A DNA stretch of 37,774 bases, from assembly GCA_012839805.1 (NCBI GenBank), contig DUMU01000011.1, forward strand, positions 1 through 37,774, read 5' to 3'. The notes beneath the pieces are model-generated. The model had not been told where the DNA came from and did not search any database. It saw nothing but the letters and a program-made list of their open reading frames with translations. This document shows, piece by piece, positions 13,805-15,891 of the stretch; the first letter of the stretch is position 1, and the number at the start of each line of letters is the position of its first letter. The position numbers were made by a program, and so were the translations under genes. The stretch is from Bacillota bacterium (GTDB lineage Bacteria > Bacillota > Limnochordia > Limnochordales > DUMU01).

Positions 13805-13963
13805 GTATAGTAGTTTTCACCAGATATGGGGGTACTAGCCTTACCCTCGCGGGAGAGAGCAGTCGAGTAAGCGCGGGTAGACCAGGACACAACCCCGAGA
13901 GCCTGAGCCGTCTCGGGATCGTCCGACCACCCTACCCGTGGCGGACTTGACGGCGGCCTAACG

Positions 13964-13991
13964 TGAACTCGGCGCTGTCTCAGGGTATACT
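13964..13991 (+). promoter_or_regulatory. possible promoter of the hemerythrin-thioesterase gene
   Basis: TATACT (13986-13991) matches a -10 box at five of six positions. TGAACT (13964-13969) is a weak -35 with 16-base spacing. The gene start is about 40 bases downstream. Confidence 0.35.
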
Positions 13992-14029
13992 CCTGACTTG
14001 GACACGCTTAGAAGGAGCAATGCAGCCTC

Positions 14030-15019
14030 ATGCGCCGGCATCCAGCACTCGTACCTTTGTCCGACGACCATCACCAGGGCTTGGTCCAGGCCCGCCATCT
14101 GTCGCTGGCCGGGACGCCGCAGGCCACGCTCTCGCCCCGCGAGACGGCCGCGGCGTTCTTGCGCTTGTGGACTGAGGACGGGGGGCAAGAACACTTCCGG
14201 CTGGAAGAGGAGGTTCTCTTTCCCGCCTATCAGCGCGAGACCCGCGCCGCGGAAAGCAACGAGGGCAACCAGGAGAGCCCGCACCCACGGCGCCGGATTA
14301 CCCCTCTGGCCGCTCCGATCATGCAAGTGCTGGCGGAACACGTCTACATCCGGGGGCTGGTGGCGGAACTGGCGGACAGTTTCCCCGCCCACGTCGACCT
14401 GGATCTGCTGCACACGCTGGGCGAGGCGCTTCACGACCACATCCGCCTGGAAGAGCAGGCAGTCTTCCCGCTTATCGAAGAGTCCCTGCCCGATCCAGTC
14501 CTCGCTCGCCTCGCCCCACGGCTCGAGTCCCCCCACTACCTGGCCCGGAAGACCAGGGAAGCCCCCCCGCCAGCCAAACCTGCAGAACAATTCACGCCCG
14601 TGTTTACGCCCGGGCTCTCCCACGAACGTACCTACGTGGTTGAACCGCAGCACACCGCGGCAGCAATCCATTCGGGCGGGATCGACGGCCTTTCCACGCC
14701 AGCCCTCCTCGCCTGGATGGAGAGCGTCGCCTTCGAACTGGCCGAAGACCGGCTGCCTCCGGGCCAGAGCACCGTGGGCGTGGCGGTCAACCTGCAGCAC
14801 ATCGCCCCCGCGCCGGTTGGGACGCAAGTTCGGGTGCGGGCCACGCTGACCGGGATCGAGGGCGACGGCCGCCGTCTGAACTTCAGCATCGAGGCCAGCG
14901 ACCACGTCGAGGTTATCGGCAGGGCCGACCACCAACGCTTCATCATCGACCGGGAGCGTTTCAACCGCCGCCTCGACCGCAAACGCTGCGCACCGGCCGC
15001 TCCAGGCACTCCGGCATGA
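14030..15019 (+). CDS. hemerythrin-like domain fused to FlK-type hotdog thioesterase
   Basis: Two-domain cytoplasmic protein, 329 residues. Residues about 5-155 form a hemerythrin/HHE four-helix bundle, with DDHHQG (His 14, 15), EHFRLEEEVLFP (His 55, Glu 59), EHVYIRG (His 104) and HDHIRLEEQAVFP (His 135, 137, Glu 141) as di-iron ligands. Residues about 188-315 form a hotdog fold like fluoroacetyl-CoA thioesterase FlK. Thr 223, Glu 231 and His 257 have spacings of 8 and 26, the same as the FlK triad Thr42, Glu50, His76. A Pro/Ala-rich linker joins the domains. GAAGGAG lies 12 bases before the start. The iron domain may sense or bind O2 or NO and gate acyl-CoA hydrolysis, or the protein may detoxify a reactive acyl-CoA. 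Function is inferred. Confidence 0.85.
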   Translation: MRRHPALVPLSDDHHQGLVQARHLSLAGTPQATLSPRETAAAFLRLWTEDGGQEHFRLEEEVLFPAYQRETRAAESNEGNQESPHPRRRITPLAAPIMQVLAEHVYIRGLVAELADSFPAHVDLDLLHTLGEALHDHIRLEEQAVFPLIEESLPDPVLARLAPRLESPHYLARKTREAPPPAKPAEQFTPVFTPGLSHERTYVVEPQHTAAAIHSGGIDGLSTPALLAWMESVAFELAEDRLPPGQSTVGVAVNLQHIAPAPVGTQVRVRATLTGIEGDGRRLNFSIEASDHVEVIGRADHQRFIIDRERFNRRLDRKRCAPAAPGTPA

Positions 15020-15675: not shown

Positions 15676-15891
15676 GGGCCGGACGCCGGGTGTGAAGCAC
15701 CGGTGCGCATCGGGACAGTGGCGGGATGCGAAGCGCCGGCGCGGATCGGGAGGGCGGCGGAGCGTGAAGTGCCGGCACGCATCGGGACGGCGGCGCGGTG
15801 CGTAGCTCCGGGACGCACCGGGACGGCGGCGGGGTGTGAAGCGCCCGTGCGGACCGGGAGGGCGGCAGCCGGTGGAATCGCTCGTTGATCC
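15676..15891. repeat. 36-bp tandem repeat array
   Basis: About six head-to-tail units of 36 bases, each of the form GGGACGGCGGCG..GTG.GAAGCGCC..., imperfect, with boundaries near 15676, 15712, 15748, 15784, 15820 and 15856. It lies between element copies 2 and 3. The unit is a multiple of three and lacks stops in several frames, so a 12-residue repeat can be read on both strands. No start site or recognisable protein supports translation. Confidence 0.8.

Follow-up and report, generated by a model that had tools for sequence, protein, structure and literature searches.

Fusion of a hemerythrin-like domain with a predicted di-iron site to an FlK-type hotdog thioesterase domain in a little-known family of Bacillota

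Analysis of a 37,774-nucleotide stretch of DNA (the window; contig 36 of a draft genome of 2.78 Mb) from a Bacillota bacterium revealed a gene that joins a hemerythrin-like domain, of a kind reactive towards oxygen, peroxide or nitric oxide, to an FlK-type hotdog thioesterase domain in one polypeptide. The fusion is genuine, maintained by selection and restricted to its lineage, and the likeliest reading of the protein is an active acyl-CoA thioesterase to which a di-iron module responsive to redox state, NO or iron is tethered. The gene occupies window positions 14030..15019 (+) as a single uninterrupted open reading frame of 329 amino acids plus stop, and a likely ribosome-binding site, AGAAGGAG, was read directly at 14010..14017 (+), 12 nt 5' of the ATG. 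The earlier note had placed the reading frame and both domains correctly; the Pfam scores are 40.8 bits for PF01814 (Hemerythrin; curated cut-off 25.3) and 101.7 bits for PF22636 (FlK; curated cut-off 27), both above cut-off. An antisense open frame of 325 codons (window 13958-14935, -) covers nearly the whole fusion gene and probably stems from high G+C codon use. The gap downstream of the gene holds a G+C-rich tandem repeat of 36 bases in five copies (window 15688-15866; 76% match), and the Pro/Arg-rich open reading frames there on both strands are probably not genes.

The hemerythrin-like four-helix domain spans residues 12-149 (14063..14476, +; PF01814 E 3.8e-10). The His and Glu di-iron ligands noticed earlier in this half proved to form a complete predicted H-HxxxE-H-HxxxE set of four His and two Glu, namely H15 (codon at 14072..14074, +), which is the first ligand and adjoins His14, the pair H55xxxE59 (14192..14206, +), H104 (14339..14341, +) and the pair H137xxxE141 (14438..14452, +). 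All six residues are invariant in the two other fusions described below and in a stand-alone homologue of Salimicrobium (L003). This pattern is the one named for BRUTUS (PMC12022348) and YtfE-like bacterial proteins (PMC12753109), and in both BRUTUS (PMC12022348) and YtfE (PMC9268430) it gives rise to a di-iron centre that is redox-reactive; in YtfE, one iron is held by H84 and H204 and the other by H129 and H160, with E133 and E208 bridging (PMC9268430). The classical O2-carrier motif is H-HxxxE-HxxxH-HxxxxD (PMC9388753), whereas the fusion protein has R108 at the HxxxH position after H104 and ends with an HxxxE pair, which rules out a canonical five-His O2-carrying hemerythrin. As read from its residues, the predicted iron site, with four His and two Glu, belongs with those of YtfE, FBXL5 and BRUTUS and not with the 5-His oxygen-carrier site, and homology suggests that the N-terminal half would bind iron. 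When the hemerythrin half alone was searched against PDB sequences, no relative came up.

The likeness to the RIC/YtfE/ScdA proteins (TIGR03652) extends to the six-residue ligand pattern, the four-helix bundle and Glu103, which precedes His104 just as Glu159 precedes His160 in YtfE (PMC9268430). Unlike these proteins, the fusion has no ScdA_N domain, and it scores 19.4 bits against the RIC equivalog model TIGR03652, over residues 125-151 only, far below the cut-off of 204.7; it was rejected as a RIC/YtfE equivalog on both grounds. A true RIC/YtfE-type gene lies elsewhere in the same genome, on contig 37 (L062:3346-4113; TIGR03652, 251.7 bits), next to a divergent Rrf2-family regulator, which gives the genome a di-iron stress protein apart from the fusion.

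The C-terminal half carries the FlK-type hotdog thioesterase domain at residues 204-309 (14639..14956, +; PF22636 E 2.9e-29). Residues 222-319 align to FlK (PDB 3p3f) by phmmer with an E value of 1.5e-11, which improves to 2.5e-15 with a three-sequence profile; the two-domain observation as a whole lies far beyond chance. The alignment has no gap across the catalytic triad, so that Thr223 (14696..14698, +), Glu231 (14720..14722, +) and His257 (14798..14800, +) fall on Thr42, Glu50 and His76 of FlK; the spacings of 8 and 26 residues claimed in the earlier note were confirmed by direct reading. Gly250 corresponds by alignment to Gly69 of FlK, and every one of the 44 relatives compared shares T223, E231, G250 and H257. 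Hydrolysis of acyl-CoA by the hotdog may be expected from this homology. The fluoroacetyl-CoA character evoked by the earlier comparison was not borne out: Gly217 takes the place of Phe36, a specificity residue in the FlK lid, and Phe is absent from this position in all 44 relatives. With the triad invariant across these relatives as well, a specificity for fluoroacetyl-CoA is not indicated. The correspondence is placed six residues before the catalytic Thr and assumes that this short stretch is gap-free. Structures of an F36A mutant are present among the FlK entries of the PDB (3p3f, 3kv7 series), consistent with this role of Phe36.

An AlphaFold2 model was obtained from an input alignment of three rows (the window protein, L002 and L003). 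It places helices at residues 5-25, 36-49, 52-78, 95-117 and 124-152 of the hemerythrin half, and the pLDDT of the bundle is mostly about 81-92 (block means), with lower values in the loop 79-94. The pLDDT of the hotdog half is about 27-53 with this three-row alignment, a separate prediction of the C-terminal half was likewise poor, and neither interface nor active-site geometry can be claimed from a half of such low confidence. When the model was searched with Foldseek, FlK chains ranked first (E 7.8e-6, with the hotdog half at low confidence), FapR was among the weaker structural matches, and a weak match at rank 39 was to the hemerythrin-like protein NMB1532.

The fusion is found in three of three sampled genomes of the window's family, which represent two genera. 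The proteins of the two other genomes are 77% (G002, same genus) and 50% (G001, other genus) identical to that of the window and have the same domain order in one frame; the recurrence check suggested by the earlier note thus gave a positive result, and the refuting case it named, an architecture absent elsewhere with an erroneous junction, is excluded. When the window is compared with G002, residues 1-163 have a dN/dS of 0.17 and residues 199-319 one of 0.09, indicating that both halves are conserved as protein and are under purifying selection. An origin by assembly or frame artefact, in which two genes were merely joined, is accordingly rejected as next to impossible: no supporting point was found for it, and it conflicts with both the recurrence and the selection. 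The Pro-rich linker between the domains (residues 164-198; 14519..14623, +) is unconserved, with a dN/dS of about 1.6 over 28 codons in the same comparison and thus no sign of constraint, and its length and sequence vary between relatives. The G001 linker is longer, with many Pro and Ser residues, and the G001 protein also carries about 40 inserted residues of low complexity after helix 1.

Both halves occur in one frame in only these 3 of the 73 genomes of the class. The class yielded no further hemerythrin-FlK fusion, nor did a sample of 398 genomes of the phylum, in which FlK matches above cut-off occur in 126 genomes and hemerythrin matches in 245. Long frames with FlK matches in the phylum (L041-L047) contain no hemerythrin domain by Pfam, examined directly or via a same-genus member; their additional residues are accounted for by a Wzy_C domain, a second hotdog or read-through that lacks annotation, and in one of them (G348, L047:1465-2313) the FlK-type hotdog stands in tandem with a hotdog of the 4HBT_2 type. 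In a further class of the phylum, a search with the fusion profile gave separate halves only. Recurrence beyond the phylum was assessed by an exact-peptide scan of GTDB genomes, which picks up close relatives only. A viral contig search gave no match, and the matches listed from a plasmid search were to the FlK half only, none covering 80% of the query. Where such matches fall on Klebsiella, Raoultella and Pantoea plasmids (H3, H9-H25), a DsbA-family protein is the sole entry in the plasmid table; being incomplete, the table may leave a thioesterase gene there unlisted.

The closest stand-alone thioesterases belong to sister families of the same order (G066 and G064); they are 52-55% identical to the fused domain and, unlike the fusion, lack the hemerythrin domain. 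In a tree of 44 FlK domains the three fusions group with G066 (98/96) and less firmly with G064 (94/52). The simplest reading is that a resident FlK gene of the order would have gained a hemerythrin domain in an ancestor of the family. The clade of the three fusions has a support of 93/32, weak on one measure, and a single origin is for this reason likely rather than established. In a further genome of the same class (G005), FlK and hemerythrin (L009) are encoded by separate genes. In the G005 frame L010:1489-2187, about 100 residues with a CxC...CxH pattern precede the FlK domain; they have no match in Pfam and presumably resemble a SWIM zinc finger.

Upstream of the fusion the window has a DeoR-type regulator, a solute-binding protein and sugar-related genes, and downstream another solute-binding protein. 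In G002 the fusion lies among pyrimidine genes and a patatin-like gene (read from open reading frames), and in G001 beside an aldo/keto reductase and a Crp-type regulator. With no neighbour shared by the three loci, the context points to no particular substrate or signal. No heme-copper oxidase was found in the genomes of the family, and only G002 has a cytochrome bd match that exceeds the cut-off, both with the proviso that draft genomes may miss genes. With the same proviso, this pattern fits an organism that lives at low oxygen and for which O2, peroxide or NO would act as stresses.

In the mechanism proposed here, the C-terminal hotdog, most likely a dimer, would hydrolyse a short acyl-CoA or another acyl thioester via Thr, Glu and His, and the N-terminal bundle would carry a di-iron centre of the RIC/FBXL5 type, held to the hotdog by the flexible Pro-rich tether. 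The presence of two intact modules is established from sequence, and the domains, their complete residues, the recurrence and the selection support a two-module reading; crosstalk between the domains, like the nature of signal and substrate, is conjecture. That the di-iron centre acts as a redox-, NO- or iron-responsive module which modulates the thioesterase is the leading reading, at somewhat less than an even chance, O2 sensing being only one option for the iron site. A terminal position as a sensor module is common for hemerythrin domains (PMC9388753, PMC4919030), and FBXL5, BRUTUS, Bhr-DGC, Bhr-HD-GYP and DcrH likewise join a di-iron domain to an output domain (PMC9388753, PMC12022348), although the output domain here is a predicted acyl-CoA thioesterase. 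A stronger version, in which O2, peroxide, NO or iron would directly switch the enzyme through the di-iron centre and define a redox-gated class, is held only tentatively. Any coupling would require the bundle to dock directly on the hotdog dimer, since a rigid lever or signal transmission through so unconserved and length-variable a linker is unlikely. The differing gene neighbourhoods and the low-confidence model of the hotdog half also weigh against the regulated reading.

The same unconstrained linker would suit a bifunctional protein devoid of crosstalk, in which the bundle performs its own chemistry (removal of peroxide or NO, or donation or storage of iron) beside an independent acyl-CoA thioesterase, perhaps because both activities are needed under the same stress. 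Relatives of each half that stand alone, the hemerythrin-like ones in other bacteria (G005 L009 and Salimicrobium L003) and the FlK ones in the same order, agree with such independence, as does Mka HLP, a stand-alone hemerythrin-like protein that is an NO peroxidase (PMC8913304). This account is a serious but doubtful one, as every sampled member of the family, across two genera, has kept the fusion, which suggests some benefit of linkage, and an operon would suffice for co-expression alone. The roles might also be reversed, with the hotdog as a ligand-binding acyl-CoA sensor and the di-iron centre as output, following the logic of FapR, whose hotdog binds malonyl-CoA. Hotdog domains can indeed be sensors and FapR is among the weaker structural matches, but the full conservation of the catalytic triad makes this improbable. 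That the protein strictly matches FlK in function, detoxifying fluoroacetyl-CoA with an iron domain as an addition, is very unlikely in spite of FlK being the best solved relative, both from the glycine (Gly217) at the lid position, where none of the 44 relatives has Phe, and from the occurrence of FlK-type genes in about a third of the phylum genomes, a spread much broader than that of fluoroacetate biology.

Known signalling outputs under the control of hemerythrin-like domains include cyclic di-GMP enzymes, chemotaxis and ubiquitin ligases. The literature searched gave no relevant description of a hemerythrin domain paired with a thioesterase, in keeping with the earlier view of the pairing as non-standard; the parts are ordinary, and their combination is new as far as the searches reach. 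The fusion offers a handle on the FlK-like thioesterases of Bacillota-type bacteria, which are widespread and little characterised, and coupling between its halves would be simple to test in vitro. If the modules are coupled, one protein of a little-known bacterial group would suffice to pass iron or redox state on to acyl-CoA metabolism; if the di-iron switch holds true, the polypeptide would by itself tie redox or iron status to the CoA/acyl-CoA pool and represent a previously undescribed class of thioesterase.
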